64,000 bases of DNA, from positions 1 through 64,000 of the forward strand of contig NZ_FNHQ01000016.1 of assembly GCF_900103535.1 (NCBI RefSeq). The letters run 5' to 3'. This DNA is from Megasphaera paucivorans. Its GTDB lineage: Bacteria; Bacillota; Negativicutes; Veillonellales; Megasphaeraceae. Shown piece after piece: positions 15,505 through 35,283 of this stretch. Position numbers and translations under genes: made by a program. The first letter of the stretch is position 1, and every line of letters starts with the position of its first letter. A model generated the notes under the pieces. The model was not told the origin of the DNA, searched no databases, and saw nothing but the letters and a program-made list of their open reading frames with translations.

Positions 15505-16701
15505 TCACCCATCACTCTTCTTCTCAAGTTTTTCATAAGAAGTGGTAATCGCCTTGTTCATTCTACTTTGATTATTCGTCATTGCATGACCGTAATAATC
15601 AAGTAGTGTAGATGCCTTACTGTGACCGGTTCTCTGAATAATGTCAGGCAAAGAAAATCCCTGAATCATCAGTTGCGTTGCAAAATATCCTCTAAGGTCA
15701 TGGAATCGAAAGTGCCTGATTCCGTGACGGCGAATAAATTTCGTAAATTTATTCGAAATATAGTTTGGCCGAACTGGACCACCTTCTGGCGTATAAAAAA
15801 TTAGATTTAAATTATTCCAGCCATCGCCCCCAACATTTTTTATGTTATCAAATTCTGTCTTCGCCGCCTCTATCATCGATAACAGCTGCGGTATAATATA
15901 TATGTACCGCTTACTGTTTTCTGTTTTGGTATGCGGCCATATGTAAGTGCCTTTCTCCACAGTATACTGTGCCGTTTGATGGACAAAAAATGTTTGCTGT
16001 GTCGGATCATAATCATTCCAAGATAATCCTAATATCTCTCCCTCACGACAACCAGTCGTAGCCGCCAATAAAACAATCATTTGGAAGACGCTGTCTTCAC
16101 TGAATAGGACAGAAAAGATTTGATTTACAGTATCTTGATCGAAAATTTGTGGCCTCTTTGACCCACCTTTTGGTGCATCAATTTTTTCCATTGGATTGTT
16201 GGGAATCTGTCCCAATCGAAAGGCCGTGCGAAAAATTCTGCTGACCAAAAAGTAAATGCCCCTTACGGTTCTTGGACTTAAAGTTTTGTCTGCAGACCGT
16301 CTTTGTTTAACCGCTTTTCGCTGATTTGATAAATCAGTAAAAAGTTTTTCTAAAATAATAGGCGTAACATCGACCATTTTTAGACTTCCTATATTAGGTT
16401 TTATATGTGTCTCCAAAAGTCGTCGGTATGAATCTATCGTTCGTGGTGCTAATCTCTGCTTTACTGAATATTGCACTATCCATTCCTCAGAAAAGACAGA
16501 TACTGTCTGCTGTGTGGCAGGTATTAACATGCGAAGTTCTTCCATCCAAGAAGTTAATTGATCTTGCGCATCAGCTTTATTAGCAGCGAATACTGTCTTT
16601 TGTCGACGTTGTTGATGACCCAGTCTATCGCGTCCCATGTCGATTGTTAAAATCCAATATTTTTCCCGGCCACCTTTCTTACGGCGAAGCGTCCCGGTCA
16701 T
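15505..16701 (-). CDS. int: tyrosine recombinase / phage-type integrase 1
   Basis: 398 residues with the full tyrosine-recombinase set: Arg219 in TTGCREGEILGLSW, His334-x-x-Arg337 in FHDLRGYF, His360 in GHSKAST and nucleophile Tyr369 or Tyr370 in LLDYYGHA. The N-terminus has the AP2-like DNA-binding domain (MTGTLRRKKGG...YWILTIDMG), followed by the SAM-like core-binding domain (residues 65-170). The start has GGAGGTGATATAA ahead of it. A paralogue with the same architecture is encoded at 43548-44741. It should catalyse integration and excision of a mobile element. The attachment site it uses is not identifiable here. Confidence 0.93.
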   Translation of the reverse strand: MTGTLRRKKGGREKYWILTIDMGRDRLGHQQRRQKTVFAANKADAQDQLTSWMEELRMLIPATQQTVSVFSEEWIVQYSVKQRLAPRTIDSYRRLLETHIKPNIGSLKMVDVTPIILEKLFTDLSNQRKAVKQRRSADKTLSPRTVRGIYFLVSRIFRTAFRLGQIPNNPMEKIDAPKGGSKRPQIFDQDTVNQIFSVLFSEDSVFQMIVLLAATTGCREGEILGLSWNDYDPTQQTFFVHQTAQYTVEKGTYIWPHTKTENSKRYIYIIPQLLSMIEAAKTEFDNIKNVGGDGWNNLNLIFYTPEGGPVRPNYISNKFTKFIRRHGIRHFRFHDLRGYFATQLMIQGFSLPDIIQRTGHSKASTLLDYYGHAMTNNQSRMNKAITTSYEKLEKKSDG

Positions 16702-19010: not shown

Positions 19011-19925
19011 CTACCAGTTCATTGCCGTACAGTTTCCTCCCCGTTTTTTTGCAAGGTACATCTGTTTATCTGCCATATCTATTATTTCTTCCATGGACAT
19101 ATTTTTCAGCGTCTTTTTCATGTTTATTGTATACACGCCAATAGATGCTGAAATACCTGGTTCTTTATTTTTCCGTAATTGAAAAATTTTGATCCGAATT
19201 CGTTCAGCAATCTGATACGCAGACGCTTCCTTCACGTTGTTCAAGCATACTATAAATTCGTCCCCGCCAAAGCGGCACGCCCAGTCCTCTTTTATCCGAA
19301 TCGTATTACAGAATATTTTTGCTACATCCGCCAGTACCTGATCCCCTTCCATATGTCCGCAGTCATCATTAATCAATTTAAATTTATCTAAATCTATAAA
19401 TAAAAGTGATACGGTTTGTTGATTGGCGGCTGCTTCCCGAATATCCCGGTCCAGCCGGGAGTACAGATACTTTTTATTATACAGCCCCGTTAATTTATCC
19501 TTAACGATTGTATCATTCATTTGCATAAAAAACTGTTGAAATAAAACCGTTTCCCTATATTCGTCATCCTCAATTGTTAAAGCACTTGTCACATCTTTTA
19601 CCAGTTCCAGTACACTTGGTTTTGCTTTATATAACAGCGGGATTACGGCAACCAGCCACAATTTATGGTGATATCGGACTAATTTATGTAATCCTTTCTC
19701 TTCCATATATGCTTTTTCCGCCATACAGCCATCTTGGTTACAAGGATAAGCCTGTTTTTTGGAACAGATACAGCATCCATTAAAAAACTGTGACTCCTTC
19801 CTGCTATAATCTACAATTACTTCTTTAGAAAAAGGATGTACGATTCTAACCACAGTATATAATGAACTTAAAAAAGACACAGCTACAACGTCCTGTGTAT
19901 CTTCAACTCTTTGATTATTCATCAT
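19011..19925 (-). CDS. GGDEF-domain diguanylate cyclase
   Basis: About 304 residues from ATG 19925, which has AGGAGATG upstream. The frame extends to 19976 without a ribosome site. The C-terminal 160 residues are a complete GGDEF domain: DKLTGLYNKKYL, LLFIDLDKFKLINDDCGH and FGGDEF, the intact catalytic loop. The N-terminal half has a Cys cluster (CCICSKKQAYPCNQDGC) resembling PocR-type sensory domains that may bind a metal or small ligand, so signal input is likely there. It would make cyclic di-GMP. The gene stands alone on the minus strand between two terminator-like hairpins. Its presence inside a mobile region is notable but not unique. Confidence 0.88.
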   Translation of the reverse strand: MMNNQRVEDTQDVVAVSFLSSLYTVVRIVHPFSKEVIVDYSRKESQFFNGCCICSKKQAYPCNQDGCMAEKAYMEEKGLHKLVRYHHKLWLVAVIPLLYKAKPSVLELVKDVTSALTIEDDEYRETVLFQQFFMQMNDTIVKDKLTGLYNKKYLYSRLDRDIREAAANQQTVSLLFIDLDKFKLINDDCGHMEGDQVLADVAKIFCNTIRIKEDWACRFGGDEFIVCLNNVKEASAYQIAERIRIKIFQLRKNKEPGISASIGVYTINMKKTLKNMSMEEIIDMADKQMYLAKKRGGNCTAMNW

Positions 19926-20149
19926 AAAAATGATGTCATCTCCTATATCATTTTTTCTCAATCTATAATAATACATTATATAATAAGGTAATTAATACAT
20001 CATTTGCTACGTCACTCCTTTAGTATAAATTACAGCAATCACTACTTTTGCAGTCTGGAATTTATTATACCACGATATATCCCGCTGTACAGTACCTCTT
20101 CTTTTTATTTATTCCCCCTACATAAATGCAATAAATAATATAGAATCTT

Positions 20150-20340
20150 CTCTTAAAAATAAAAAGGAGCAAAAGGCAGGACTGGCTGCTTTCTGCTCCT
20201 TTTTCACATGCGAGAAGGGTCGGATACCTGTGGTGATTCTCTCATATTATCTCATAATTTTAATACCTCAGGTTCGCCTGTATCTGCTGAATGTTCACAT
20301 ACATACGCTGTCTCCGATGTCACGCTATCCCTTTTGCACT
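20150..20340. repeat. diverged copy 2 of a ~180-bp repeat
   Basis: This covers the last bases of the ERF gene and its 3' flank. It shares GGACTGGCTGCTTTCT, TATTATCTCATAATTT, CAGGTTCGC, ACATACATACGCTGT and a GTGTCACGCTATC block with 18640-18830, in the same order. The inner part includes a terminator (20161-20204). The similarity reaches from just before the ERF stop to past the terminator. Confidence 0.65.
20161..20204 (-). terminator. terminator of the recombination operon
   Basis: AAAAAGGAGCA pairs with TGCTCCTTTTT to give an 11-bp stem flanked by A and T runs, with a shorter inner stem. It follows the ERF stop by about 115 bp and works on the minus strand, and possibly on both. Confidence 0.8.
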
Positions 20341-20946
20341 TCGCTGACAGTCCATACACAAGGCTCTGCCATATTTATCCTTGGAAAACTGGAGTACCTT
20401 TTCCGTGATTACCGTACCGCAGACACTGCAAACAGGCTGCCGGGTAGGTTGCCGGGTTCGGTTCAGTACCGACTGCATCTGATGACGGTGCCCTGTTTTT
20501 TCTTCCAGAGCAGCGGTTATTTCATCCGTATGGCAGTCGGCTTCCGGATCATCGCCGGTACTAATAGCAAAGCTCAGGAGATAGGCATACTTAATCGCTG
20601 CTGTCTGGGCTTTCATGACTGCCTTATCTCCGGCATCCTGCCCGCTGCCCAGTCCTGTGATCTGGATCGTTTCCCCTGATTCTATATCTGTTAACTGGAT
20701 ATCCATCCGCACCGTTGCCAGTTTCTCTATATTTCCCTTTGCCGTGGTAATATCATCCAATCGGAGTAATTCCGGTACCGCCGCAGATGCAATTCTATAT
20801 TGGACAAACGCCGCATTCACTTTCTCCAGTACGTCGGCACTGGTAGCATACGTATACCCATGGTACTTGTTTTCCCCTTTTTTCATCACATATCCGCAGT
20901 CTTTCATGACAGCAATTAGTTTTTTTGCTAAAGCTTTCATACTCAT
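20320..20946 (-). CDS. ERF-family single-strand annealing protein
   Basis: 208 residues. The N-terminal 130 residues match the ERF/RecT-like annealing family: KYHGYTYATSADVLEKVNAA and GSGQDAGDKAVMKAQTAAIKY, where phage ERF proteins bind single-stranded DNA. The C-terminus carries a zinc ribbon with two CxxC pairs (CSVCGT and CMDCQ). It probably pairs homologous strands during phage- or plasmid-like recombination, and may work with the nuclease encoded at 21988. An AAGGAGAG site precedes ATG. Iteron element A lies 30 bp upstream of the start. Confidence 0.85.
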   Translation of the reverse strand: MSMKALAKKLIAVMKDCGYVMKKGENKYHGYTYATSADVLEKVNAAFVQYRIASAAVPELLRLDDITTAKGNIEKLATVRMDIQLTDIESGETIQITGLGSGQDAGDKAVMKAQTAAIKYAYLLSFAISTGDDPEADCHTDEITAALEEKTGHRHQMQSVLNRTRQPTRQPVCSVCGTVITEKVLQFSKDKYGRALCMDCQRSAKGIA

Positions 20947-20975: not shown

Positions 20976-21070
20976 TGTCCACATAGTCCATATTGTCCTA
21001 TCTTTTCAGATATTATCTATACATAAACTTACCTATATAAAATTTGCGGACACCCCGGACAATACGGACA
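20976..21070. repeat. bilateral iteron element, copy A
   Basis: Three boxes TGTCC/AGTCC/TGTCC start at 20976, 20985 and 20994 (9-bp pitch). Three boxes GGACA start at 21048, 21057 and 21066 (9-bp pitch). They enclose a 49-bp AT-rich centre. Copies B, C and D share the design. A lies between the ERF start and the 3' end of the Api92-like gene, 17 bp from its stop. The boxes are inverted relative to each other, so the whole element is symmetrical. Confidence 0.9.
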
Positions 21071-21087: not shown

Positions 21088-21810
21088 TTACACGGCAGCA
21101 TCACAATTATGGCAGTCTTCGCAGCCGTGATACTGTTTGTGCCCTTCATCATCCGTATAGAGGCAGGGGGATGGTCCCCAGCATGTTTCATAAATCTCGT
21201 ACGCTGTACTGAAATGATTGGGTGCGGCATATGCTTCCTGCAATTTCCCGTCTTCATATCGCATCCATCCACAATTCGTGCCGATATCTTCATCAGCCCA
21301 CACATGTGTGATCGTACTATCCGGAAACATCGCTGCTAACTTTTGGATGACTGGTATCGGTGCAGCCCATGCTGTCTGGAAGGAAAGGGTATGATCCGGA
21401 TCCGTTATCACTGCATCCATAGCATTCCATTTGGTGCCCCAGTGTGCGATAGACCAGCCATACCAATCCGTATATCCATATTGCTGTTGATTCTGATAGG
21501 CTTTTCTTCCCAAGTCCCGGTTGATCTGCCGTTGTTTTTCCAATCGGCGAAGATACGCTTTGATCGTCTCATGCGTATGCCGTTCTTTTTCATAGCGGCT
21601 GCGAAGACCGTCCGGAATGATGCCTTCCTGCAGATATATCTCTGCATAAAAAGACAGCTCCATCACACTGCTGGATTCGATCTGTAGAGACGGTGGCATG
21701 GGAATTATTTGGTTAAAATCCAGCAGACTGTCTTTGCCTTTTATGGTCTCCCATAGTTGTCCGATATGGGGACTGGTGATCGTCATCTTGTTTTGCACGT
21801 AATTCGGCAT
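21088..21810 (-). CDS. Api92-like / DUF1281 (YubB ferredoxin-like domain) protein
   Basis: 240 residues. MPNYVQNKMTITS and the later WSIAHWGTKWNA and FQTAWAAPIPVIQKLAAMFP are the hallmark blocks of the Api92/DUF1281 family with a ferredoxin-like fold, usually found on plasmids and phages. Near the C-terminus it has THVWADEDIGTNCGWM and a Cys/His-rich end (CEDCHNCDAAV). The molecular role is unknown. The start has GGGAGAATAGAATC upstream. It is flanked on both sides by iteron elements A and B (17 bp after the stop, 58 bp before the start). Confidence 0.85.
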   Translation of the reverse strand: MPNYVQNKMTITSPHIGQLWETIKGKDSLLDFNQIIPMPPSLQIESSSVMELSFYAEIYLQEGIIPDGLRSRYEKERHTHETIKAYLRRLEKQRQINRDLGRKAYQNQQQYGYTDWYGWSIAHWGTKWNAMDAVITDPDHTLSFQTAWAAPIPVIQKLAAMFPDSTITHVWADEDIGTNCGWMRYEDGKLQEAYAAPNHFSTAYEIYETCWGPSPCLYTDDEGHKQYHGCEDCHNCDAAV

Positions 21811-21868: not shown

Positions 21869-21964
21869 TGTCCCACCTGTCCACGTTGTCCGCCATTTAA
21901 AAGACACGGATATACTTTCTATATAGGCTCTTTGCTTCTTAGGACAGTGTGGACAAGACGGACA
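21869..21964. repeat. bilateral iteron element, copy B
   Basis: TGTCC boxes start at 21869, 21878 and 21887; GGACA boxes start at 21942, 21951 and 21960. The pitch is exactly 9 bp in each arm and the centre is about 50 bp. It lies just upstream of the Api92-like gene and 23 bp below the stop of the nuclease gene. Confidence 0.9.
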
Positions 21965-21987: not shown

Positions 21988-22875
21988 TTACCCGGCTTTT
22001 CTAAACTGCTGGAGCTTTCTGCCATAGGAGCAGAACTCCCTGCCATCACAGTAATCCAGACATTTCTGATTCTGCCACCGTTCCCGGGAGGAACAGACGG
22101 GCGGCAGAATATTGGCATCTTTTGCCTGTTGCAGCAGTGCTGCTTTTCGACTGAAATAGCGGTTGATCCATCGGTTGCTTATTTTATAAATGGGAATGAT
22201 ATACAACGGTTGGTCAATTCCCCGTTCCGCAGCAATACGCAGCCCGCTGTCCCGGCATAGTGCCTGAATATACATCCGGTGTACTGGAAATCCCGCCTGT
22301 TCCAAGAGCATCCGGTAGTAGTTAAGCTGTACAGCCCAATCCCATACGTGCCGTACGCCGTCATGACAAAGAATCGTCTTGTATTTTAGTTGTCCTTTTC
22401 TGGATCCAGTTTTGTAGATTTCTCCGGTAGGAATCTTCTGTTTATATATTCCCAACGCTTTCATCAGCTTATAAGAGCTCGTAACTTTTAAATCCCCCAG
22501 TACACATTCTTCCGTATCAAGGATCTTCCCGTACAAATCAAACTGACCGCTGGTAATTTGGTCTTTTAATCGGATCTCACTTAAAATCTCGCCCTGCGTA
22601 CAGCGTTCATGCATGGTATGGACGGCTTGTCCTTGCAGTGCATAGAGAATACGCTGCGGGGATACGGCATAGGGCATCGTTTTCTTCAAATACGTTTCCC
22701 GTACTCCGGCAATGAGTTCCGTCACCGTTGGTTCTGTGATCGGCCGGTTTACCGATTTAGCAATGGCACGGAGTGTTGGCAGAAACATGCAGCGTGTTTG
22801 TTTCGGACACGCTGTCAGGCATTGCAGAATCGGAATATGTTGTCCGTCTGGGCAGATAAATTGTGTGGCTGACAT
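21988..22875 (-). CDS. PD-(D/E)XK nuclease-like protein with terminal cysteine clusters
   Basis: 295 residues. The centre reads SGQFDLYGKILDTEECVLGD followed by LKVTSSYK, matching the D...(E/D)xK nuclease core around residues 105-130. Cysteines cluster at the N-terminus (CPDGQHIPILQC, ACPKQTRC) and C-terminus (CSSRERWQNQKCLDYC, EFC). That arrangement resembles Cas4/AddB-type nucleases with an Fe-S cluster, although I cannot prove it. It may act as an exonuclease partner for the ERF protein, as in phage recombination pairs. ATG follows GAAGGAAGCG. It sits next to the 82-residue gene and RadC on the same strand. Confidence 0.65.
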   Translation of the reverse strand: MSATQFICPDGQHIPILQCLTACPKQTRCMFLPTLRAIAKSVNRPITEPTVTELIAGVRETYLKKTMPYAVSPQRILYALQGQAVHTMHERCTQGEILSEIRLKDQITSGQFDLYGKILDTEECVLGDLKVTSSYKLMKALGIYKQKIPTGEIYKTGSRKGQLKYKTILCHDGVRHVWDWAVQLNYYRMLLEQAGFPVHRMYIQALCRDSGLRIAAERGIDQPLYIIPIYKISNRWINRYFSRKAALLQQAKDANILPPVCSSRERWQNQKCLDYCDGREFCSYGRKLQQFRKAG

Positions 22876-22876
22876 C

Positions 22877-23125
22877 TTATTCGCTTCCTTCTACTGTAGT
22901 TTTGAGTCCATTGCAAGGGATGGATTGTTCTGTATTACGTGTAGGTTCTATTTTGGGAAGCGTTACCTCCCTTACGTCATGGTCTTCATCCTGCACGGCA
23001 ATATATACCTGCCGTGTTGTTTTTGTCTGGATCAGACCGAGGGATATGCGTCCAACCTGCAGCGCCATCCGTCCCGGCAGATTGGCTTCTATGATCAATT
23101 GCAGCTGGTTCATCTTACTCATCAT
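22877..23125 (-). CDS. small hypothetical protein between RadC and the nuclease
   Basis: About 82 residues, overlapping the last codons of radC (ATGATGAG) and ending two bases before the nuclease start. It reads MNQLQLIIEANLPGRMALQV near the N-terminus. No known domain is recognised. Tight packing with both neighbours suggests it is a real, translationally coupled gene. The start could be at any of three nearby ATGs (23125, 23122 or 23113). Confidence 0.6.
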   Translation of the reverse strand: MMSKMNQLQLIIEANLPGRMALQVGRISLGLIQTKTTRQVYIAVQDEDHDVREVTLPKIEPTRNTEQSIPCNGLKTTVEGSE

Positions 23126-23747
23126 CTTCTTTCCATAGCTCGCTCATGGCTTTTCGAAAACTGTAGCAATCATACTTTCCGATGATGATATGATCCAGCA
23201 GTGGGATATTCATCAGGATTCCCGCTTCCAATAATCGTTTCGTCATCGCCGTATCCTGTGTACTCGGGGAAGAATCACCGGAGGGATGGTTATGGATCAC
23301 AATCACGGCTGCTGCCATCTGCTGTACGGCCGCATGGAATACCTCTCGAGGCGTTGCCAGAGATGAATCAACTGTACCAATGGTGATCTGTTTCTTTTGT
23401 AAAATATGGTTTTTGGCATCTAACAATAAGGCCCAGAGTTCTTCCTGCTGCCGGTCCGCTAAAAACTGGAAACATTGGATTGCCTCAGACAAACAGGTGA
23501 TGCTGGCGATCGGTTTCGTCCGTTCTTCCTCTACTTTCGTGATGACTTCTTGAAGGCAGCGGATCCGTTTTGCGTTTCTCCGTCCGACACCGGGAACGGC
23601 TTGTAATTGTGCTTCTGACGTATGCAATAAAATGTGATATAAGCTTGGATATTCCCGCAGAAGCTGATTGACACAGCTCTTCGGTAAAAACGTGGCCAAT
23701 AATTCTTTTTCTGTCAACGGGTGCCGTGTTGTATTGGTATGACGCAT
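23115..23747 (-). CDS. RadC-like JAB-domain protein (DUF2466)
   Basis: 210 residues. A helix-hairpin-helix, VPGVGRRNA, is at 51-59. The C-terminal JAB/MPN domain has the metal-binding HNHPSGD at 152-158 followed by PSTQDTAMTK. Despite the old name, the function in repair is not proven. On mobile elements RadC is common beside DUF932 and annealing proteins. AGGAGGAAATAAC precedes ATG. It lies 109 bp downstream of the DUF932 gene. Confidence 0.9.
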   Translation of the reverse strand: MRHTNTTRHPLTEKELLATFLPKSCVNQLLREYPSLYHILLHTSEAQLQAVPGVGRRNAKRIRCLQEVITKVEEERTKPIASITCLSEAIQCFQFLADRQQEELWALLLDAKNHILQKKQITIGTVDSSLATPREVFHAAVQQMAAAVIVIHNHPSGDSSPSTQDTAMTKRLLEAGILMNIPLLDHIIIGKYDCYSFRKAMSELWKEDDE

Positions 23748-23856: not shown

Positions 23857-24975
23857 TTATTTGACGACTGTCAGCCGTGGTAAATCGGGTGTCACATTCC
23901 GCATGGGTTTCGTTGACTGCTGCCCGGATAGTAATGTCTTTGGAACCGGGTAGGCTAATAATTCTCCACCGATCCGTTCTAATTCCGTGGCCCGTTCATA
24001 GGATTTGGATAACTGGCTGGCAGCGGTTACCGCATTGATCAATCCGTACCGGCTGCAGTCTTTGCCCAAGAACAATTGGCGCAGTACATCGCCCCGTTCA
24101 TTCTGGTTGAGCTGGAAGGTATCTGCCAGTACTTCCACGGCTTCTACCGGATTATGAGTGAGTGGAATCTGTTTAGCTTCCTGCAATTTACGGACAGAAA
24201 GATGAAATTTCGTCTCATCGACGGCACTACGGACAATATCCTGTACCTTCATAAAGAAGGCTTTATCGTCCTGTGCCAGTGTTTCATCGGAATAGAGTTC
24301 ATAGGCATCGTTTGGCTGTTCATTGATTTGCCGCCCTACATGATATTTCTTTTGGGCGTAGTCCTTGACGATCAACCCATTTTTGCAAACCAGACGGAAT
24401 ACTAACGGTTCCACCCGCAGACTACCCAGCCCGATTTCACTATTGCTGATGACAAAGCCGGCCTGTACCACATCGCCTACGGCTACTTCTTCTTTCAGCT
24501 TCCGGTTAATGACCTTCAAATACAAATGGGCATCGGTCACGTCACAGCTTGTAATCTCGGCCTTTTTCATTTCCTGAATTACCGGCAATACCGCACTGCA
24601 TAACTCCAAATGATCCAATCTGCGATACCGGTCGGAGAGAAATGCTCGGACGCTGTGATCCAGCACCCGGACCATGCGCCGTTCCGGACTCTGCCGGAAC
24701 CAACCGTTGACACTTTCATCCAACAGCATGGGGAATTCCTGCTGCATCTTCTGATAGTACCGGTACGGGATCTGCAGTCGGGATGCAATCTGCTGATGAG
24801 CGATGGGCCCAACGGTGTACTGTTTCTCCGTATTGCCAAGTAGTACCGCTAGTTTCGATACCCCGTCTGTCGTCTCCAATTCCAGATTCCGCGTATCAGC
24901 CAAAAAATCTTTCCGACTCTTTCGTTGCCGTGTCAGCTCCGTGCCTATTTCTTGTAACGTTCGTCCTTGTTTCAT
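23857..24975 (-). CDS. DUF932 family protein
   Basis: 372 residues from the ATG at 24975. The frame extends to 24993, but the first six codons are the AGGAGGAACTTGATC ribosome site itself, which decides the start. DUF932 blocks include LEIPYRYYQKM-like LQIPYRYYQKMQQ, VRAFLSDRYRRLDH and KLHLSVRKLQEAK-like KFHLSVRKLQEAK. It is typical of plasmid and phage replication/recombination regions. The role is unknown. It is the first gene of the minus-strand operon DUF932-radC-orf82-nuclease-(Api92)-ERF. Confidence 0.88.
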   Translation of the reverse strand: MKQGRTLQEIGTELTRQRKSRKDFLADTRNLELETTDGVSKLAVLLGNTEKQYTVGPIAHQQIASRLQIPYRYYQKMQQEFPMLLDESVNGWFRQSPERRMVRVLDHSVRAFLSDRYRRLDHLELCSAVLPVIQEMKKAEITSCDVTDAHLYLKVINRKLKEEVAVGDVVQAGFVISNSEIGLGSLRVEPLVFRLVCKNGLIVKDYAQKKYHVGRQINEQPNDAYELYSDETLAQDDKAFFMKVQDIVRSAVDETKFHLSVRKLQEAKQIPLTHNPVEAVEVLADTFQLNQNERGDVLRQLFLGKDCSRYGLINAVTAASQLSKSYERATELERIGGELLAYPVPKTLLSGQQSTKPMRNVTPDLPRLTVVK

Positions 24976-25032
24976 GATCAAGTTCCTCCTCATATATTAT
25001 ATGTAAAATATGTGTTACCTCATTCAGACAGC

Positions 25033-25254: not shown

Positions 25255-25466
25255 AAAACAAGGCCACAATATTATAACGAATCCCTTAAAAAGAACATCG
25301 TACGCTTTCGGTTACAAGAGGGCCAAACATACAAAAGTATTACCGCAGAATATGGGAGCTCTAAAGCCAGTATTTCAAAATGGTGTACCTACCTAAACCA
25401 GTCTGAAGAATTTGAAAAATCTCAAACTCCATATTCATTTTGGTTATTTAGTGGACACAATTGGTA
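25255..25466 (+). pseudogene. IS3-family OrfA (HTH) transposase remnant
   Basis: The plus-strand frame reads RPQYYNESLKKNIVRFRLQE, then GQTYKSITAEYGSSKASISK and W, the helix-turn-helix of IS3/IS150-type OrfA. It continues to a stop at about 25466, directly before the IS256 end at 25478. It has no catalytic OrfB after it and no clear start codon. Together with the OrfB tail at 15.1 kb it is debris of IS3-type elements. Confidence 0.7.
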
Positions 25467-25477
25467 AGTTTTTTTTA

Positions 25478-26956
25478 GAGTGTGTGAATAAAAATCTGTA
25501 AATACTAGTCTTCTATGATAATACTTGGGCAGAAAATTCTTACTGGTTTTTTCTGCCCTTGATTTATATATAACAGCACATACCATGCATGTCAAGTACA
25601 AGCGAAAAATACGTCGGTTGATCATCATATACAGTGGTTTATTCTGGCAGTCGTCCTTCATACATGATACTCAACTCACCATAGACTTGTCTCCAATTCC
25701 GAATAGGCATGGACCATTTTTTTTTGGCTTCAAAAGTAGATAGGTACAGTGCTTTTAAAAGGGCTGTATCACTTGGGAACACGCTTCTCTGCCGGTTTAG
25801 CTTGCGGTAGGTTGCATTCAGGCTTTCAATTGCATTGGTTGTGTAAATGACCTTCCTGACAATTGCTGAAAACTTGAAGATGGGGGAAATGGCATCCCAG
25901 TTCTGCTTCCAACTTCGCATGGAGTTCGGATATTTTTCATGCCACTTTTCTGTGACACGCTCCAGCGCATCCAATGCTTTTTCTTCCGTTGGGGCTTGGT
26001 AAATTGTTTTTAAATCTGCATAAAATGGTTTTCTATCCTTATCTGCTACATATTTCATGGTATTACGCACCTGATGTACGATACAGCGTTGGTATTCTGT
26101 CTTTGGATACGCAGCCGTGATTGCTTCTTTGATACCGGTTAACCCATCTGCACAAATAATCAGAATGTCTTTTACTCCCCGGTTTTTCAACCCATTCAAA
26201 ACGGACAGCCAATACTTAGAACTTTCATTTTCACTCACCTCTATGGTAAGAACTTCTTTGAGACCATCTTGATTAATGCCTAAGATGACGTATGCTGCGA
26301 GTTTGCGAATGATGCCATTATCACGAACGGAGTAATGGATGGCATCGATATAGAGGACCGGATACACATCTGAAAGAGGACGATTTTGCCAGTCTTCAAT
26401 CTGCGGCATGATTTTATCGGTAATATCCGAAATAAAGCCTTCTGAAGCTTCAAATCCATAAATGTCTTCCAGTGTATCCGAAATTTGTCTGGTGGTCATG
26501 CCCTTGGCGTACATAGAAATGATTTTTTAATCGATAGCAGAGATATCCTTTTGCCTTTTTTTGACGATCTGGGGCTCAAAGGTAGATTTACGATTCTGAG
26601 GAACCTGAATATCCATGTTTCCATAGCTACTGTTGATGCGTTTGTGTTTATACCCGTTACGATAATCATCACTAGCAGAGCGTTCTGATTTTTCATAACC
26701 CAGGTGTTAATCCATTTCATTTTCCATCATTTCTTTTATGGTGCCACCAAGCAGATTCTTAAGGGCGTCCTGAATGTCTTCTGCAGATTTGATGTCATAC
26801 TCTTGCAGGAGTTGTTGGATGATGTTGCGTTTTCCTTCTGTCATTTGTACTTTGTGTACGGGTTTCTTTTCTTTTTCCATAATAAAGGCCTCCTATGATT
26901 TTATCATAGAAGACCCTGAAAAATCTTTATTTACAGAAAAACTTTCACAGGCCCTC
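25478..26956 (-). mobile_element. IS256-family insertion sequence (transposase inactivated)
   Basis: The left end GAGTGTGTGAATAAAAATCT with the GTCTTCTATGATA block (25478-25520) is matched in inverse by the right end, where the minus strand reads GAGGGCCTGTGAAAGTTTTT and later GTCTTCTATGATAAAAT (26956-26903). The transposase frame lies between. The right end has extra bases compared with the left, so the IRs are imperfect. Flanking target duplications are not clear. Boundaries are accurate to a few bases only. Confidence 0.8.
25639..26880 (-). pseudogene. IS256-family transposase with two in-frame stop codons
   Basis: Read from ATG 26880, the frame gives MEKEKKPVHKVQMTEGKRN and KEMMENEMD, then a TAA at 26707-26709, then HLGYEKSERSASDDYRNGYK, and a second TAA at 26527-26529 after DISAID. 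It then continues unbroken with ISMYAKGMTTRQISDTLEDI to 25639. The DDE region is intact: VLYIDAIHYSV, CADGLTGIKEAI and NAIESLNATYRKLNR. Both stops occupy positions where the family carries an acidic residue, and TAA is one base from GAA. The largest remaining frame (291 residues) lacks the N-terminal DNA-binding part, so transposition by this copy is unlikely. Confidence 0.9.
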
Positions 26957-26978
26957 AAACCCCATATTCTTTTTGTAT

Positions 26979-27010
26979 ATTAAGAACAATGGCATGTGTT
27001 CTTAATCGTT
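26979..27010 (-). terminator. hairpin after vsr
   Basis: ATTAAGAACA and TGTTCTTAAT enclose an 8-base loop at 26979-27006. It lies about 40 bp downstream of the vsr stop on the minus strand. There is no long T run, so it may be a weak terminator. Confidence 0.4.
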
Positions 27011-27048
27011 TCCTTAAAGGAAATTTCCGTATAACGATAAATATAATT

Positions 27049-27474
27049 TTACCTTGCATTATTACATTTCTCACAAATAATTTTCAAACAAACGTCAAGA
27101 TTCGCGTGCACTTGCTTTTCCCAAAAATGAACGGGCAGCCAATTCAATTGTCGCAAAAGTTTATTATTTCGTTTATCTCGATTAATATTTTCTTCTATTT
27201 TTTCGTTCCAGTATTTCTGATTGGTTTTGAGCCTTAATTTTCTATTTTCCCAATCATATCCATGCCAAAACTCACCATCAACAAATATTGCGATTTTATA
27301 TTTCAATATCGCGATATCTGGTGACCCTGGCAACTTCTTGTAATTCAATCGATATCGCAGACCTTTATGCCACAGAGCTTTTGCAAGCATAGTTTCTGTT
27401 TTTCCACCTTTTAAGTGGACATGAGCCATTCTCTTGGATATTTCAGGCGTTGTAATAAAGTGTGGATGTTTCAT
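27049..27474 (-). CDS. vsr: very-short-patch-repair (Vsr) endonuclease
   Basis: 141 residues from ATG 27474, chosen because AGGAGCTATC precedes it and MKHPHFITTPEISKRMAHV is the conserved start; the frame runs further to 27528. The Vsr core reads GSPDIAILKYKIAIFVDGEF followed by WHG, with the catalytic Asp and the aromatic wedge. KLPGS and NINRDKRN are also typical. Vsr nicks T:G mismatches left by deamination of 5-methylcytosine, and usually travels with a C5 methyltransferase. Here dcm-type methylase 32305-33921 is five genes away in the same direction, with an IS200 relic inserted just upstream. Confidence 0.93.
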   Translation of the reverse strand: MKHPHFITTPEISKRMAHVHLKGGKTETMLAKALWHKGLRYRLNYKKLPGSPDIAILKYKIAIFVDGEFWHGYDWENRKLRLKTNQKYWNEKIEENINRDKRNNKLLRQLNWLPVHFWEKQVHANLDVCLKIICEKCNNAR

Positions 27475-27519
27475 GATAGCTCCTATGCATTTGAATCTTT
27501 TCCTAAAATAGTAACTCAC

Positions 27520-28024
27520 AACCACCACTTCAAATGGTGGTTTGTCTTAGTCCTATAAAGACAATTACTTACGCGCCTAAAAGGCGGGCATCGCAAGCAC
27601 TGTTACCAACTTAGCTTCTAAAAGAAACTTTTGATTAGTTTATCTTCTTCCTTGGCATAAATTTCTTGCTCTGCAATGTATTTCCTAATTGCTTCTTCTG
27701 TAACATTACCCACGGTGCCCATGTAATAGCCTCGTGCCCAAAATGCCTTGTCCCATTTGCCAAACATATCGGGATGTAAATCATGTATCATCAAAGCGCT
27801 TTTCCCTTTCAATAATTTCAATATTTTTGTAACCACATAACTTTGGGATGACTTCCTTAATATCTAATCGTAACTTTCCATATAATACCCTTCTTCGGTA
27901 TTTTGGTATAAATACTATATGATATTGGCACTTCCACTTTGCATGTGCTAAATTTAAACTATCCATTTGGATACCCCCATGTTCATGATTTGGCTTGCGA
28001 CACCATAATCATGGTATCATGGGG
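27520..28024 (-). mobile_element. IS200/IS605-type element relic with end hairpins
   Basis: A left hairpin AACCACCACTTCAAATGGTG at 27520-27543 and a right imperfect hairpin from CCCCATGTTCATG to CATGGTATCATGGGG at 27975-28024 bracket a small transposase remnant. Subterminal hairpins rather than inverted repeats are the sign of IS200/IS605 elements. There is no TnpB. It separates vsr from the rest of its cluster, and vsr's ribosome site lies about 40 bp inside the flank. Confidence 0.75.
27618..27966 (-). pseudogene. tnpA: IS200-like TnpA transposase, internally deleted
   Basis: The first part reads MDSLNLAHAKWKCQYHIVFI and PKYRRRVLYGKLR up to GYKNIEIIE. The second part, in the next frame, resumes at LKGKSALMIHDLHPDMFGKW and runs through AFWARGYYMGTVGNVTEEAI. 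The intervening segment, which in the family contains the CPDHIHML histidine-hydrophobic-histidine motif, is absent, and the junction also shifts frame. Without that HUH motif the protein cannot cleave DNA. The second part keeps the EAIRKYIAEQE region that normally holds the catalytic tyrosine area. It behaves as a MITE-like relic. Confidence 0.85.
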
Positions 28025-28099: not shown

Positions 28100-29044
28100 T
28101 CAAACTTTCCTAACATGATATGTTTGAGGTTCTACCAACCAATTTTCTGAAAGCATAATGATACTGGCCGGATCAGATAGAATCATTGGAACATAATCAT
28201 CCTTATTGATTCTTGATAACTCAATAAGATATAAATAATAATGTGTTCCTCTTAATTTTGCAATCTCATATTCATTACTTGACCAATAAAATCCATTCCG
28301 CTCTGAAATAGCTTTTACCTCTATGAATCTATCATAATCAGAGGAATCGTTTGATTCAAAAGAAACAATGTCATAACCAGCACACACATCAACTTCTGAT
28401 ATTATTCGAATTTTCTTCGACAATATGGGATTCGTTATACGTTTTTTTTCATATTCTAAAACATACTTTTCAGCTTTTGCTCCTATTATCGCATTTGCTT
28501 CAAGATTATTTTTTAATTGTTCTAAAGAAACTGTCTTTGTACTTTCTTTGCACAAATTTGAAATAACATCCTCAAATTCAGGATTAACATGAATACTAGC
28601 CAGTATTTTTCGGCTTGTTGTAAAAAAATTTTGACTAATCAGAACATTCCTGATGGTAGAATATGTCAATGGTAATAATTCATTTCGAAATGTAATGTTA
28701 CAATCCTTAATGTCATAGAAAAACATATCAGCTTTAAAAATATTTTGTTTAAATAAGGTGCATACTGTACATTTAATCAACGCATCATTCAAAGCTGAAG
28801 ATGATTCTAAATACGGATAAATATCTTCATTAAGACGTATATATTCATCACATAAAATCCATCCGAAACTCATACAATAAGAAATCAATGAATCAACAGG
28901 TAATTGATATATTCCGGGAGCATGAGAACAGAGTACTCTAATATCGTTCACTAAGAGCACGCGTTTTCCTATAATAGTCCTCAAAAAATATATCAAATCA
29001 TCTTTTTTTCCTGGAAAACTAAGATTTTTTAGTCCTTCTAACAT
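28100..29044 (-). CDS. DUF3883 domain protein, probable nuclease-like
   Basis: 314 residues. The C-terminal third, from about residue 205, is a DUF3883 domain: EVDVCAGYDIVSFES, then DRFIEVKAIS, followed by FYWSSNEYEIAKLRGTHYYL. The D...ExK arrangement is the PD-(D/E)XK pattern seen in this family, which is frequent in restriction and defence loci. The N-terminal 200 residues are helical without recognisable motifs. It overlaps the SNF2 helicase gene by 26 bp, which suggests coupling. It probably supplies the cleavage subunit of the neighbouring methylase/helicase system, but this is inference from context. Confidence 0.75.
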   Translation of the reverse strand: MLEGLKNLSFPGKKDDLIYFLRTIIGKRVLLVNDIRVLCSHAPGIYQLPVDSLISYCMSFGWILCDEYIRLNEDIYPYLESSSALNDALIKCTVCTLFKQNIFKADMFFYDIKDCNITFRNELLPLTYSTIRNVLISQNFFTTSRKILASIHVNPEFEDVISNLCKESTKTVSLEQLKNNLEANAIIGAKAEKYVLEYEKKRITNPILSKKIRIISEVDVCAGYDIVSFESNDSSDYDRFIEVKAISERNGFYWSSNEYEIAKLRGTHYYLYLIELSRINKDDYVPMILSDPASIIMLSENWLVEPQTYHVRKV

Positions 29045-31007
29045 AATCTTTGATCAACGCCTTTATATCATCATCACCAAGGTCTTCCGTAATATTATCG
29101 AATAATGGGATAGGCATGCTTTCCATGATATCATTCATTCGATGTTCTTTTTCAGTCAAACGAGTATCAATAGTCTCATCAATAGAATCTTTTGATAAAA
29201 TATAATAGTAATTTGTCTCTACATCTGGTTTAAGTCCATATCTATGAATACGATCTTTGGACTGTACAAAGTGTGCAACATTGAATGATCTTTCAATATA
29301 AATTGCATTATGACAAGCTTTATGCAAAGATATCGATTCAGCTACGGCAAATGGATTCGCGATAACAACTTTATATGAACAATCAGGATCTTGAAACTCT
29401 TGCACAATTCGTTCGCGTGTTATGATTTGACTTTCACTATCGTTAGACAAACCCTCGTTTTCAACAGGTATAGCACCATATAATTCTTGTGATTCGATGC
29501 CTGTTTTTGCAAGATATTGTTTGAGACCAAGAATCGTATGAACAAATGTGGCCCAAACCACTACCTTGCCTCCACTAGCAATAATTTTTTCTATAAGTTC
29601 TTTAACTACTTTATATTTTATCGGGGTTTCTATTTTTTCATAATCTATAATAGATCTCATAATATTGGCATCATTTACAACTTGATATGCTTCTCCAGGA
29701 CACTCATCATCTTCTAAAAATTCCTTAAGCGGAGCTTGTAACATTGAAGGATCTGTCGCCGTTTGCATCAAACGAATCACTCTCGCTTTAGCAAGCATAG
29801 CTTTGAAACGAGAAGATGTATCAACTGACCCATCTTCTATCATTGCATCAATATATTTTTTTTCAATAAAATCATATATGCGTTGCTGTATTAGACCCAT
29901 ATTAACCTTAATAGGAGGATGCACAGTCTCTTGCGGTATCTTCAAATCACTTTTTTTGATACGGATAAAATAAGGTGAAATATTGTCAATCAAACGATTT
30001 ACTCGCGGATCACTTCTTCTAGCAGTCATATCTCGTAATTGATTAACTCCAAATCCAATAACATTTTTATCTGGCCAGATAAATTTAAACATATTATAGA
30101 GATCTTCATATCCGTTAGGCGCCGGCGTACCTGTTAATACAACTCTTGCTCTGCAATACCTCGCTAAGCTAAGAATAGCCTGTGCAATTATTCCTCCTGA
30201 AGAATTTTTAGCCTTGTGAGCCTCATCAAGAACGACCATGACTTTGTTATTACGTAAAAAGTAACCAATGTCGTCTTGTAAAGATACTACTGAAGCATAC
30301 GAAATAAGAGTTAATTCAACTGTATGTTTTGAATACAAATAATTCTGCTTATCTTCCTTACTTATTCCACTAATAAGACGTTTGACATCTGGTTTATGAC
30401 CAAAACATTCAGCATATTCCAATTCCCAAGGTCCAAAAGCGCTCAATGGTCCTACTATCAACAACTTATCGATATATTTTACATCATCAGTAAGAAGATG
30501 ATGTAAATATGCATATGCTCCATAAACGATACTGGTTTTCCCTGCACCTGGAACGGAAAAATTGCAAGCATTTTGTGAAAATGCTAAATGATATGCCGAA
30601 AGTAACTGCAAAGGATACAGAGACCTGTTAGACAATTCATGTACAACAATATTAGTAAATTCCTGAAATTCAACTGTATCACACTTGTTGTTTCTGATAA
30701 GGCAAGCTTTTTTCGAAAAAGTTGTGAATTGGCGTTTTTTTTCATAAAAATCATTAAGAACTTTTTCTGAAGATTTACTCTCGACTTCATTAAATTTATA
30801 CTTAGCTAACATCTTGCTGACCTTTGATAATATATCCATTATATCATTATTTCCTACAGAAATAATGATTTTTGAATCTTCTACAGTCGGATGTAGATAA
30901 TCTTTCATATATCCCCATGCAAATCGGTGTTTTCGTAGAGCATCGACATCTCCAAGTAAATATATTTCTTTTTTTTGAGAATCTACATTTATAGATATCG
31001 TAGCCAT
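29019..31007 (-). CDS. SNF2-family DEAD/DEAH helicase
   Basis: 662 residues from ATG 31007, which has GGAGTTGAG upstream; a longer start at 31046 would overlap the ParB-like gene. Motif I is FSVPGAGKTSIV around residue 150, motif II is VVLDEAHKAKN, motif III is LTGTPAPNGYEDLY, and the second RecA lobe ends in QSKDRIHRYGLKPD. A C-terminal segment follows (DSIDETIDTRLTEKEHRM). The fold is a SNF2/RapA-type translocase. In DISARM and related systems such helicases move along DNA to expose targets. It is between the ParB-like and DUF3883 genes, all on the minus strand. Confidence 0.9.
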   Translation of the reverse strand: MATISINVDSQKKEIYLLGDVDALRKHRFAWGYMKDYLHPTVEDSKIIISVGNNDIMDILSKVSKMLAKYKFNEVESKSSEKVLNDFYEKKRQFTTFSKKACLIRNNKCDTVEFQEFTNIVVHELSNRSLYPLQLLSAYHLAFSQNACNFSVPGAGKTSIVYGAYAYLHHLLTDDVKYIDKLLIVGPLSAFGPWELEYAECFGHKPDVKRLISGISKEDKQNYLYSKHTVELTLISYASVVSLQDDIGYFLRNNKVMVVLDEAHKAKNSSGGIIAQAILSLARYCRARVVLTGTPAPNGYEDLYNMFKFIWPDKNVIGFGVNQLRDMTARRSDPRVNRLIDNISPYFIRIKKSDLKIPQETVHPPIKVNMGLIQQRIYDFIEKKYIDAMIEDGSVDTSSRFKAMLAKARVIRLMQTATDPSMLQAPLKEFLEDDECPGEAYQVVNDANIMRSIIDYEKIETPIKYKVVKELIEKIIASGGKVVVWATFVHTILGLKQYLAKTGIESQELYGAIPVENEGLSNDSESQIITRERIVQEFQDPDCSYKVVIANPFAVAESISLHKACHNAIYIERSFNVAHFVQSKDRIHRYGLKPDVETNYYYILSKDSIDETIDTRLTEKEHRMNDIMESMPIPLFDNITEDLGDDDIKALIKDYVRRTKKS

Positions 31008-31012
31008 TTTGC

Positions 31013-32305
31013 TCAACTCCGATCTAATCGCTTCTTCATCGTCCACGTAATATTATTGATTTCTCTAACCATGTCCTTGATACGTGGATCAGTAGAAAAG
31101 CTATCTTGCTCACAATCAACTGCCTGCAATGCTCCAAGTGCTCTTTCTATAAGTTCTACAGGTTTATGCGAGTCTTGTTGGTCTTCAAGTTTTCTAGAGA
31201 ATCTTCGCAGATTTCCTTTAAGAATCCCTTTTGATTGTCCAATCCAATCATTATCTCTACTTCTTAACAATTTACTAAGGTCCTCATGGGGATGTTGTTT
31301 GCGTAATTCGTCAACAGATTCTTCATCCCCCGGAGTTTTTGCTTGATGTTCTTGTAAAAACGCTTCCCAGAGTTCCTTATAAAAGAAAATGCTTCCGTCT
31401 TTTCCTGTCTTTGCGATATCACGAAACTCTTTTCCTTCATATCGAGCACGTATATAATCAAAACAAACTCGTTTTAAATCCGAAATATCAGAATCAGAAT
31501 ATGTCCAATTCATATTTCTGATATTTGCACCTTGCTTTTTATAAGAATCTAAATATCCTTCCAAATCAACAAAAGGTCCCTCTGTTTTTTCAAGACGGGT
31601 ATATATACCATCATAATCATATTCTCTTAAATATTCCTCCATGAGTTCCAAAATTGAAAGCCATGTTTTGATTTGTCCAGGTTTTTCATTCATAAAACCT
31701 GCAATATCTTCTTCTGAAAAGCCAACCTGTTTGAGTCCTTTACATTTTAAATATTTTTCTATAGGATTGTAATCTAGCTTGTCGTCTTCACCCATCTGAT
31801 AAATAGTTTCAAGCTGTTGAATATCTCTTTCTTCTGCATCATCCGGAAGAATTATAGCAAGAAAGTATCTGCAATGTTCAACTTGTCCCAACTCATAACC
31901 AAGTTCTGTACGCTTATGAAACAGACGATTGAGCAACATTGCCCGTCTATTTCCATCAATAATAATACCATTGGAAGTAACTATACCATAACGCTGTTGT
32001 CCATTCTGGCATAAACTTCTCATAGTCGTTTTGTTCCTGTCTTCTTTTGATTCATAAAGAAATTTTTCTATTATCTTACAATCATCATCGTTTTCTGCTT
32101 TAAGAACACCATTTTGTTTTTCGTAAGAAAGAACATCAGAACCAATACGCCCATTATATTTATTGTAAATCAAATAATCTAGCGGGATACGGTAAACATT
32201 TTCCGTGAGAGTGGCTCCTTTGTAACGAAGGGGTATCCCTGTCATAACCGGTTTCTGGTTATTTCGCAATTCCATAAGTTTTTCTTTGCGTGTTGAAGAA
32301 TCCAT
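31013..32305 (-). CDS. ParB/Srx-fold domain protein of defence-type cluster
   Basis: 430 residues. The N-terminal ParB-like fold includes NVYRIPLDYLIYNKYNGRIG and IIDGNRRAMLLNRL at residues 115-128, the DGNRR motif of ParB/sulfiredoxin-type nucleases. A long helical, charged C-terminus follows. It shares its first base with the last base of the methyltransferase gene and lies six bases before the helicase start, so it belongs to that operon. It is too far from a chromosomal parAB setting to act in segregation. A nuclease or a DNA-loading role is a guess. Confidence 0.8.
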   Translation of the reverse strand: MDSSTRKEKLMELRNNQKPVMTGIPLRYKGATLTENVYRIPLDYLIYNKYNGRIGSDVLSYEKQNGVLKAENDDDCKIIEKFLYESKEDRNKTTMRSLCQNGQQRYGIVTSNGIIIDGNRRAMLLNRLFHKRTELGYELGQVEHCRYFLAIILPDDAEERDIQQLETIYQMGEDDKLDYNPIEKYLKCKGLKQVGFSEEDIAGFMNEKPGQIKTWLSILELMEEYLREYDYDGIYTRLEKTEGPFVDLEGYLDSYKKQGANIRNMNWTYSDSDISDLKRVCFDYIRARYEGKEFRDIAKTGKDGSIFFYKELWEAFLQEHQAKTPGDEESVDELRKQHPHEDLSKLLRSRDNDWIGQSKGILKGNLRRFSRKLEDQQDSHKPVELIERALGALQAVDCEQDSFSTDPRIKDMVREINNITWTMKKRLDRS

Positions 32306-33921
32306 TATTTAAGACCTCCCATTTCTTTAATAATGTTATCAAGAAGATAGTAACCAATGATAATTGCTTGCGGCAAACACTGAGGGGAACTCCCAGTTGA
32401 TATCATATCCGTCCATGCCGCCTTAGGAATAGCTTGTTTTATAAATAGTTTGATATCATCTAATAATTCATAAGGACCAAACTGATTTACATCATACCGT
32501 TGCGTAGTTGTCATACAAAAAAGTTCTTGGAATCTATTATATGATACAGCTTGCATAATTTTATTTTCCAAGTACTCATTAACACGTTCTCTATAAACAT
32601 TGTCAATTAAATCGTTCGTAATAGTCGGTGTAAACATAGCGGCTTTATCTTTCCCTTGGCTATAATGTAATTCAACATCCCAACGAAATCGTTTATTTTT
32701 AAAATCTGAATGGTAATTTGTCAACTCAACTCGATAAGATGAAAGAATCAGGTACGGGATATGATATTTGAATTTTGCAACTGTTCTTTTAGGTTGTTCT
32801 GTTTTTAAAGAAAATTTCATTCCGTTCAAATTCACGAACTTAATTGCTTTGTCATGTTGAATTGGAATGTACTGATTTGGTATTTCTTCATTATCGTCAA
32901 GTGCAATTGCTTTTGCTATTGCATATGCCATTTTGGGCGGTACTGCGTTTCCAACAAGCGTATGTTTTGTTGCTTTCGTTTTTCCATAAAACCAATAGTC
33001 TATAGGAAAACTCATCATTGATGCCGCTTCTCTTACAGTAGGTAATCTATATCGCTTATTCCCATATTCAAAAATCATTGCTTCACGTGAACTCGCTGAC
33101 ATTGTCGCTAAAACTGTCCGAGCAGGTTTATCAAGATTTTCCGGGAATGACATTCGTCCCATATACCCCTTATCTTGTTTCAGTCGTTTAGCAACTTTCC
33201 ATTCAAACGGTGCTAGTTCATATATGTATCTATGATCAGTCATTTCCTTTCTAGTAAGTGTTAGATTAGGGTAATTTATATCAGTAATTGAAGTATTGAA
33301 ATTTGCTAAAGGTTTACCTAAGGATGCAAGCACAGAACGCAACTTTACTACATCATCATCTGTATGCGTTGACTGAGGTTTCGGAAATTCGCCGCACAGA
33401 TAACGTTTGCGATTTGTAGGCGCGCCAAAATATTTAGCATTGTAAATCCCAGACTCTCCTCTATTGGGATGTAAAGTGAAATCACCAAGTAGTCCTAAAT
33501 CCGCCGCAGTATAGTCATCATAAATATACTTTTTTACATTTGGCACATTTTCCAATACCCAATACTTAAGAATTGAATTCGGTTTGTATTTTTTCCTCGC
33601 AACAATTCGTAAATATGCTTTTATAAGTTTGATGCCCAAGGTTTTATCCGCATTCCCAGATTTATTAGACTGCGAAAAAGCTTGACATGGAGGGGAACCT
33701 ATGATTACTTCTGAATCTGGGACTAATTGTTCAAATGCTTCATCATCAAGCTCAGAAATTCTAATAACATCATCTTGAATAACATTTACACCAGGTTTAT
33801 TTCCTTTATATGTTGTAACTGCAGGCATCCACTTGTCTACAGCAAATACTATTTGAAATCCTGCTTGGCGAAATCCCTCAGAGAAACCACCTCCTCCACA
33901 AAAAAAATCTGCAACTCTCAT
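32305..33921 (-). CDS. DNA (cytosine-5) methyltransferase
   Basis: 538 residues, longer than most C5 methylases. Motif I FFCGGGGFSEGF is at residues 6-17, catalytic Cys79 is in GSPPCQAFSQS, ENVPNV is motif VI, GAPTNRKRYL is motif VIII, REAASMMSFP is motif IX and LVGNAVPPKMAYAI is motif X. About 180 C-terminal residues extend past motif X and are not recognised. The target sequence cannot be predicted. It is the first gene of the cluster MTase-ParB-SNF2-DUF3883-(IS)-vsr and would mark self DNA. No close canonical restriction subunit is seen apart from the DUF3883 protein. Confidence 0.93.
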   Translation of the reverse strand: MRVADFFCGGGGFSEGFRQAGFQIVFAVDKWMPAVTTYKGNKPGVNVIQDDVIRISELDDEAFEQLVPDSEVIIGSPPCQAFSQSNKSGNADKTLGIKLIKAYLRIVARKKYKPNSILKYWVLENVPNVKKYIYDDYTAADLGLLGDFTLHPNRGESGIYNAKYFGAPTNRKRYLCGEFPKPQSTHTDDDVVKLRSVLASLGKPLANFNTSITDINYPNLTLTRKEMTDHRYIYELAPFEWKVAKRLKQDKGYMGRMSFPENLDKPARTVLATMSASSREAMIFEYGNKRYRLPTVREAASMMSFPIDYWFYGKTKATKHTLVGNAVPPKMAYAIAKAIALDDNEEIPNQYIPIQHDKAIKFVNLNGMKFSLKTEQPKRTVAKFKYHIPYLILSSYRVELTNYHSDFKNKRFRWDVELHYSQGKDKAAMFTPTITNDLIDNVYRERVNEYLENKIMQAVSYNRFQELFCMTTTQRYDVNQFGPYELLDDIKLFIKQAIPKAAWTDMISTGSSPQCLPQAIIIGYYLLDNIIKEMGGLK

Positions 33922-34113
33922 TCATTTCCCCCTCTATTTTGATTATGCAACTCATCTTTCTGTCCACGATTTTAAAAATATTTTGTGAATGATTGATTTT
34001 AATTATTAATTTATGTCTAAAAATACGTTTGATTTTTTCTCAGTTCTTTTATCTATATTGATTGCGGCCACTGTAACACATTTCAAACAATCAATTTAAT
34101 AGTCAATTAGTAT

Positions 34114-34329
34114 TTATCCTTTAGTCTTTTTTTGTCTTTTAACAAGTTTAATATATGCATTTTTATGACGATTAGGGCATAACGCAACAGTATTTTCCAA
34201 TAAATCATTTTCCCCTTTTGACAGCCATTCAATATGATGAACTTCAAGATAATGGGTTCCGTTTTTCCGTTTAAATGGAGCTTTTACTCCACAAATATCA
34301 CAAGATTCCATGTGCCCTACGTAATGCAA
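34114..34329 (-). CDS. short HNH endonuclease (possibly truncated)
   Basis: Up to 71 residues, starting at TTG 34329 or ATG 34311. CDICGVKAP provides one Cys pair, LEVHHIEWLSKGENDLLENT and VALCPNRHKN are the HNH core with a second zinc Cys-His pair. Most relatives carry this domain at the C-terminus of a larger protein, so it may be a fragment. Two stop codons lie immediately upstream in frame. It lies 190 bp before the methyltransferase, on the same strand. Confidence 0.7.
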   Translation of the reverse strand: MHYVGHMESCDICGVKAPFKRKNGTHYLEVHHIEWLSKGENDLLENTVALCPNRHKNAYIKLVKRQKKTKG

Positions 34330-35129: not shown

Positions 35130-35226
35130 GCTTTATGTCCCCCTATCTGCGTATCTTGTTCTATCGTAGTTGCGCCGTCCTGAAGGTCGATACCCTTTAA
35201 AATAGCGTTTTTCTCATTTAAATCCT
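35126..35226 (-). pseudogene. uvrX 3' remnant (C-terminal end of Y-family polymerase)
   Basis: The minus strand encodes EKNAILKGIDLQDGATTIEQ followed by DTQIGGHKA and a stop that overlaps the yolD start. This is the characteristic C-terminal tail of UvrX-type Y-family polymerases. It is preceded in frame by a stop at about 35229. The 5' part of the same gene is at 38760-39361. Confidence 0.85.
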
Positions 35227-35283
35227 ATATTTCAAATATTCTGCTAGATCAAAATTGTTGTTCATAACATCTCTCCAAATTGC

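Follow-up and report, generated by a model that had tools for sequence, protein, structure and literature searches.

The window, that is, the whole stretch of 64,000 nucleotides of Megasphaera paucivorans DNA analysed here, contains an integrated element that spans approximately 15–47 kb and lies beside a tRNA-Ser gene. The element encodes two integrases, ERF, exonuclease, RadC, DUF932 and HTH_17 proteins, defence-like cargo and a 650-aa protein, and conserved ribosomal-protein, rpoA and secY genes are located beyond it. Within it, a repeat referred to here as the opposed triplet (three GTCC boxes, a core, three GGAC boxes) occurs in four copies, all of them present where the sequence-only reading had placed them (starts at 20976, 21869, 40136 and 42607). 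The relevant features are as follows.

20320–20946, minus strand: ERF single-strand annealing protein
20976–21070, no strand: copy A, three GTCC boxes, 49-bp core, three GGAC boxes; between the ERF and Api92-like genes
21088–21810, minus strand: Api92-like (DUF1281_C) protein
21869–21964, no strand: copy B, 50-bp core; between the Api92-like and exonuclease genes
21988–22875, minus strand: phage-type exonuclease, kept beside rep and the opposed triplet in relatives
23115–23747, minus strand: RadC-like protein
23857–24993, minus strand: DUF932 protein, in the same operon
39550–39738, plus strand: small HTH_17/excisionase-like protein, rival candidate binder
39826–40044, plus strand: second small HTH_17 protein, rival candidate binder
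40136–40233, no strand: copy C, 52-bp core; 26 bp 3' of the 688-aa gene
40259–42325, minus strand: 688-aa AT-rich cargo gene between copies C and D, no family match
42607–42703, no strand: copy D, 51-bp core; between the 688-aa gene and the integrase gene
43548–44819, minus strand: tyrosine integrase of the element
44992–45375, minus strand: 127-aa protein, overlapping the 3' end of rep and co-conserved with rep in relatives
45329–47281, minus strand: putative 650-aa initiator helicase (rep) with the SaPIbov1 Rep/SCC Cch fold in its model and a C-terminal winged helix; proposed cognate binder
47572–47662, minus strand: tRNA-Ser, adjoining the rep end of the element

Among the proteins scanned of the integrated element none matched capsid, tail or terminase; being integrated, carrying integrase and rep genes and, among these proteins, no phage structural genes, it has the make-up of a PICI. 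No nearby phage or plasmid relatives were found by DNA similarity. The tRNA-Ser gene is a possible attachment site, but no convincing att repeat was seen beside it and the ends of the element were not found. A second tyrosine integrase gene (15505–16701) lies about 28 kb from the first, which suggests tandem or nested elements. The region from 28100 to 38529 encodes a NOV_C protein, an SNF2 helicase (ZorD/DrmD-like), a 430-aa unknown protein, a C5-cytosine methylase and a 1081-aa protein that has no family match; this defence-like cargo resembles a DISARM/Zorya-type island while matching no named system. Broken Mutator-family and IS200-type transposase genes are inserted at 25422–27966, and a GGDEF diguanylate cyclase gene (19011–19976), kept there in genome G347, adjoins the ERF end.

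Sequence and conservation of the opposed triplets

Measured from the first G of GTCC to the last C of GGAC, copies A to D occupy positions 20977–21069 (93 bp), 21870–21963 (94 bp), 40137–40232 (96 bp) and 42608–42702 (95 bp), and the previously given lengths of 95–98 bp hold when the flanking T/A is counted. The regular spacing claimed for the boxes was fully reproduced, as all 24 are exact GTCC or GGAC and neighbouring boxes of an arm are always exactly 9 bp apart. Triple arms occur four times per strand in the window, always in opposed pairs, and a window scan allowing up to one mismatch yielded no isolated half-sites outside copies A to D. The opposed pair is therefore the unit. That the layout is rare by chance was borne out by 150 simulated 64-kb windows (first-order Markov, same dinucleotide make-up), which contained neither the full pattern nor a triple arm. 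An unbiased scan for any 4-mer with any period from 7 to 12 in opposed layout returned the GTCC array with period 9 as its sole result, the overlapping TGTC being picked up as well in copy B. In the whole 2.9-Mb genome, copies A to D are all the occurrences of the exact element.

Other parts of the sequence-only reading have to be modified. It described a centre of about 50 bp that is AT-rich; the length stands at 49–52 bp, whereas AT enrichment over the background is clear for the cores of A (80%) and D (75%) only, those of B (66%) and C (67%) being near the window mean of 62%. For the box, given as (T/C/A)GTCC, the GTCC part is exact throughout, but the preceding base is T in 21, 20 and 22 of 22 Negativicutes half-sites at box positions 1, 2 and 3, respectively, and judged from these sequences the box is better given as TGTCC. 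In the same half-sites a stretch rich in A, often TATAAAA, marks the edge of the core about one step past the third box. A position of all boxes on one DNA face does not strictly hold, because the 9-bp step differs from the helical turn of 10.5 bp and successive boxes rotate round the helix.

The search of related genomes that had been proposed located the exact element in six of 380 genomes of the class, namely the window's genome, the neighbour genome G347 of the same genus and four from the Anaerovibrio genus group, and always beside the ERF/exonuclease/DUF932 module; a backwards control pattern had zero matches in the same 380 genomes. The DUF932 operon was rejected as a partner, the protein being present in 68 of the 380 genomes and the element in six. 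Conservation was likewise seen in another genome. In G347 both arms of copy B are fully conserved, those of copy D are identical and those of copy C nearly fully conserved, and between the two Megasphaera genomes the flanks drift while the arms stay conserved. Copy A is absent from the homologous G347 site, where unrelated DNA is found. This DNA (L257:8922–9053) has its own inverted repeat, GTTTCGCCCATTTCAC...GTGAAAATGGTGAAATGAGAAAC, which is possibly another box type. We also note that an opposed triplet is located 22–26 bp past the stop codon both of the 688-aa gene and of the gene at L256:8425–10227, two large genes that match no family and show no BLASTP homology to each other. The 688-aa protein and the 600-aa protein of genome G105 were ruled out as homologous partners, as they are not homologous by BLASTP.

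The 650-aa protein and its homologues

No Pfam, PHROG or NCBIfam entry matched the 650-aa protein, and the Pfam model for DUF927 had no match in genome G000. Its AlphaFold2 model (pLDDT 69.7, moderate confidence) has SaPIbov1 Rep as the top fold match (8tch, Z 18.7 over 452 residues, Foldseek E 5e-13). SCCmec Cch is second (5dgk, Z 16.9); MCM helicases come next and are clearly lower (Z 12). Residues 525–648 match TcpK, a DNA-binding wHTH protein, with a Z of 11.1. By the fold matches to 8tch and 5dgk, the integrated element encodes a putative cognate self-loading helicase of the Rep/Pri-Rep kind, in line with the SaPI-like origin envisaged from sequence.

Close homologues of the protein exist in nine genomes of the class. 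In all five non-Megasphaera loci with a close homologue and enough flanking sequence (L256, L293, L294, L295 and L296), an opposed TGTCC array is located 0.06–2.8 kb from rep, which also speaks for a SaPI-like origin. In all five it is 5' of rep, at a distance of 60 bp in L293 and of 2–2.8 kb in the other four, where it is close to the ERF/exonuclease end. An exact four-mer opposed search in these loci had seemed to exclude the link to Rep, and a relaxed search reversed that. The arrays of L293 to L296 are imperfect, with about 4 of 30 positions off or, in L294, a wide core of 311 bp (82% AT versus 61% for the locus). Opposed TGTCC arrays were not seen in 245 kb of control Negativicutes loci, nor beside distant homologues of the 650-aa protein (23–25% identity; L297–L299), and IMG/VR held no relatives of the protein. 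Three draft assemblies of the Anaerovibrio group (G110, G113, G116) carry the element without a detected 650-aa homologue.

Phage helicase loci with the same layout

Collagen-like Gly-Pro-X coding repeats (GGTCCNNNN) dominated our first pattern scan of viral sequences; they were removed by forbidding G before GTCC. Many of the non-collagen matches adjoin replication genes. They lie beside genes for DUF5906/NrS-1-type primase-helicases or BLAST relatives thereof (L015, L046, L056, L060, L062, L110, L130, L178, L215, L330), an archaeal D5_N-DUF5906-RFX protein (L168), a VapE-like protein (L100) and AAA_25 helicases (L047, L064, L156; L006 and L027 are relatives of L064). On four actinobacterial phage or prophage-like contigs, opposed GTCCGTTGT-type boxes are situated within a gene for an AAA_25 RepA-like helicase, at its 3' end (L006:7108–7201, L027:3706–3799, L064:6776–6869, L164:656–749). 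For RepA-type mycobacteriophages, a previous study detected no repeated motif in those regions that its authors inspected (PMC7157519).

For a reverse test, 80 IMG/VR phage loci were fetched by the DUF5906 protein alone; the query proteins had been taken from pattern matches, most of the 80 loci had not. GTCC elements with up to one mismatch were present in 12 of these loci, compared with 0–1 for control boxes and periods, and all 12 begin 80–170 bp past the matched end of the DUF5906 gene. When any sequence was allowed, a 9-bp-phased triplet was detected in 63 of the 80 loci, with none in shuffled sequences and no more than 8 for any other lag. In 48 of the 80 loci, opposed arms with 9-bp phasing lie directly 3' of the helicase gene; such arms were seen in none of 262 control windows (0/65 upstream, 0/197 random). 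The box varies among these phages (GTCC, GCCC, GTCA, GGCA). The model of the phage DUF5906 helicase matches the C-terminal region of NrS-1 polymerase (Z 26.6) and the SaPI5 PriRep/primase-helicase (Z 19.1), and it too has a C-terminal winged-helix-like domain. The occurrence of the same layout directly 3' of SF3 primase-helicase genes of this type further supports the origin reading. Profile comparison of the DUF5906 helicase family with the window's Rep family revealed no homology beyond the P-loop. Isolated phages with a fused primase-polymerase (YuA, chi, VP5 and others) showed no clear 9-bp triplets beside the gene, apart from a weak set of GGAC boxes in Microcystis phage Mwe-JY26.

Repeats of other kinds were encountered as well. 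Bacteroidales genomes (L181:1120–3062, L126, L127, L125, L204) bear tandem clusters of 2–7 copies of a related-looking element with inverted 9-bp boxes (GTCC-N5-GTCC-N5-GTCCGTAGAC...GTCTACGGAC), with no recognised helicase within the stretch read. Hairpin arrays, several per genome, in which GTCCCATNN or GTCCCCNNN units recur every 9 bp were found in Planctomycetes (L143, L135, L199, L213, L227, L128, L166, L229, L200) and Syntrophorhabdus (L161, L149) and probably represent a different repeat class.

Candidate function and relation to known systems

Copies A to D are best read as a multi-copy iteron origin of the SaPI/PICI type, or as a multi-copy site for Rep, binding and replication being what we infer. 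It is likely that they are the iteron sites for the element's own SaPI-type initiator helicase, and they are probably replication origins. PICI origins always have two iteron sets around an AT-rich region (PMC6092414). SaPI Reps recognise their origin iterons via the C-terminal domain, and Cch is related to SaPIbov1 Rep, with Cch2 binding AAGTG iterons through its C-terminal domain (PMC7581432). In the mechanism we propose, each TGTCC box would be read by one C-terminal winged-helix domain of the 650-aa Rep, and three such domains would align at 9-bp steps on each side of the core. Two opposed Rep oligomers, probably two hexamers, would melt the core and be loaded facing each other, and this opposed loading would start replication of the excised element in both directions. 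One copy or more would act as the origin; the others may be extra or alternative origins or sites that titrate the initiator and thereby control copy number. Counting against this reading are the lack of copy A in G347, the imperfect arrays of L293–L296, the cores of B and C with an AT content barely above that of the window, the moderate confidence of the Rep model, the three Anaerovibrio group genomes with the element and no detected Rep homologue, and the number and position of the copies, which are taken up below.

A multi-site operator had been considered as an alternative to an origin. A small BldC/Xis-like HTH_17 protein would then polymerise head to tail on the 9-bp repeats and control nearby genes or excision. 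BldC indeed binds 9-bp direct repeats head to tail (PMC5859096), two HTH_17 proteins are encoded beside copy C, homologues accompany the element in G110, G113, G116 and G347, and copies A and B lie upstream of the ERF and Api92-like genes. We nevertheless regard such a role as unlikely, since co-occurrence of these best candidate binders with the site fails both ways: G105 has two elements without the 72-aa HTH_17 protein, G102, G115 and G117 have the protein without elements, and no HTH_17 homologues are encoded at L256 and L293–L296. Moreover, copy C and copy E (in G105) are located between convergent gene ends, the surroundings of A and B show no excess of promoter-like sites (2 found versus 3.2 expected), and in phages the layout adjoins helicase genes. 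Somewhat better placed, though still rather improbable, is a Rep-bound copy-control or partition site that is not an origin, comparable to P4 crr or plasmid inc iterons, the copies of which would titrate the initiator or pair origins and so limit replication. Four copies in one element, none of them adjoining rep, would suit this role, as would the single copy near rep in most relatives; those single-copy relatives, however, would then be without an origin of such kind, and the opposed layout round a core fits PICI origins (PMC6092414).

We give very little credence to a small mobile repeat, be it a MITE or a REP-like element, that is moved by a Y1 transposase. The same motif does occur at several non-homologous intergenic sites, Y1_Tnp genes are present in the window's genome and some REP elements have GGAC head motifs. 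Yet there are just four copies in 2.9 Mb, all of them in one region inside one integrated element and unlinked to Y1_Tnp, several motif-bearing genomes have no Y1_Tnp, the A site of G347 is no clean empty site, the spacers differ while boxes and spacing are fixed, and the element tracks rep and helicase genes. The convergent intergenic gaps that harbour C and E would be suitable places for a bidirectional terminator or another RNA element. This is the least probable explanation, as copy C is preceded by a separate hairpin terminator belonging to the HTH_17 gene, the arms are not followed by a U-tract, the genes flanking A and those flanking B run in the same direction, and tRNA-Ser is the sole Rfam match.

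Returning to the origin reading, we tentatively suggest that opposed 9-bp (T)GTCC triplets may be an origin code common to initiators of different structure, namely SaPIbov1-type MCM-like Reps, SF3 primase-helicases of the NrS-1/SaPI5 type and AAA_25/RepA-like helicases, each of which would read the boxes with a winged-helix domain. Such a code would span satellites, prophages and archaeal elements; the same organisation is seen here in phage contigs with SF3 primase-helicases. For integrated satellites and for most prophages the origins have yet to be mapped; if the code is real, they could be found from sequence alone. As the signature is strict, searchable and tied to named helicase genes, origin predictions are directly testable in many phage and satellite genomes. 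No paper describing the opposed 9-bp triplet layout was found in a non-exhaustive literature search, in agreement with the earlier remark that no named element is known to have it.

Of the known systems, the SaPI/PICI origins (SaPIbov1, SaPI1, EcCICFT073) share with the opposed triplet two sets of short iterons round an often AT-rich core and the use of a like-folded Rep helicase whose gene the integrated element itself carries. The differences concern the strict three-plus-three TGTCC boxes at 9-bp steps, the additional ERF/exonuclease/DUF932 genes and defence-like cargo, the unusual presence of four copies per element instead of one, and their position. PICI origins reside directly 3' of rep, whereas copies A to D are 2.6–24 kb away; the nearest, copy D, lies 2.6 kb past the rep 3' end with the integrase gene in between, and in relatives the array is 5' of rep. 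SCCmec likewise combines a putative origin with Cch, a helicase of the same fold, and Cch2, whose C-terminal domain binds iterons, but the Cch2 site consists of three AAGTG iterons in one direct-repeat set and differs in box and layout. BldC operators resemble the arms in their head-to-tail 9-bp direct repeats; theirs, in contrast, are AT-rich AATT repeats in a single orientation that serve transcription control. P4, with ori1 and crr, also has separate repeated sites for one initiator-helicase, although its iterons are arranged differently. The phage helicases of the NrS-1 polymerase-like (DUF5906) and SaPI5 PriRep type are SF3-type, not MCM-like, and the boxes vary, but phages with such a helicase share the opposed 9-bp-phased arms, there just 3' of its gene.
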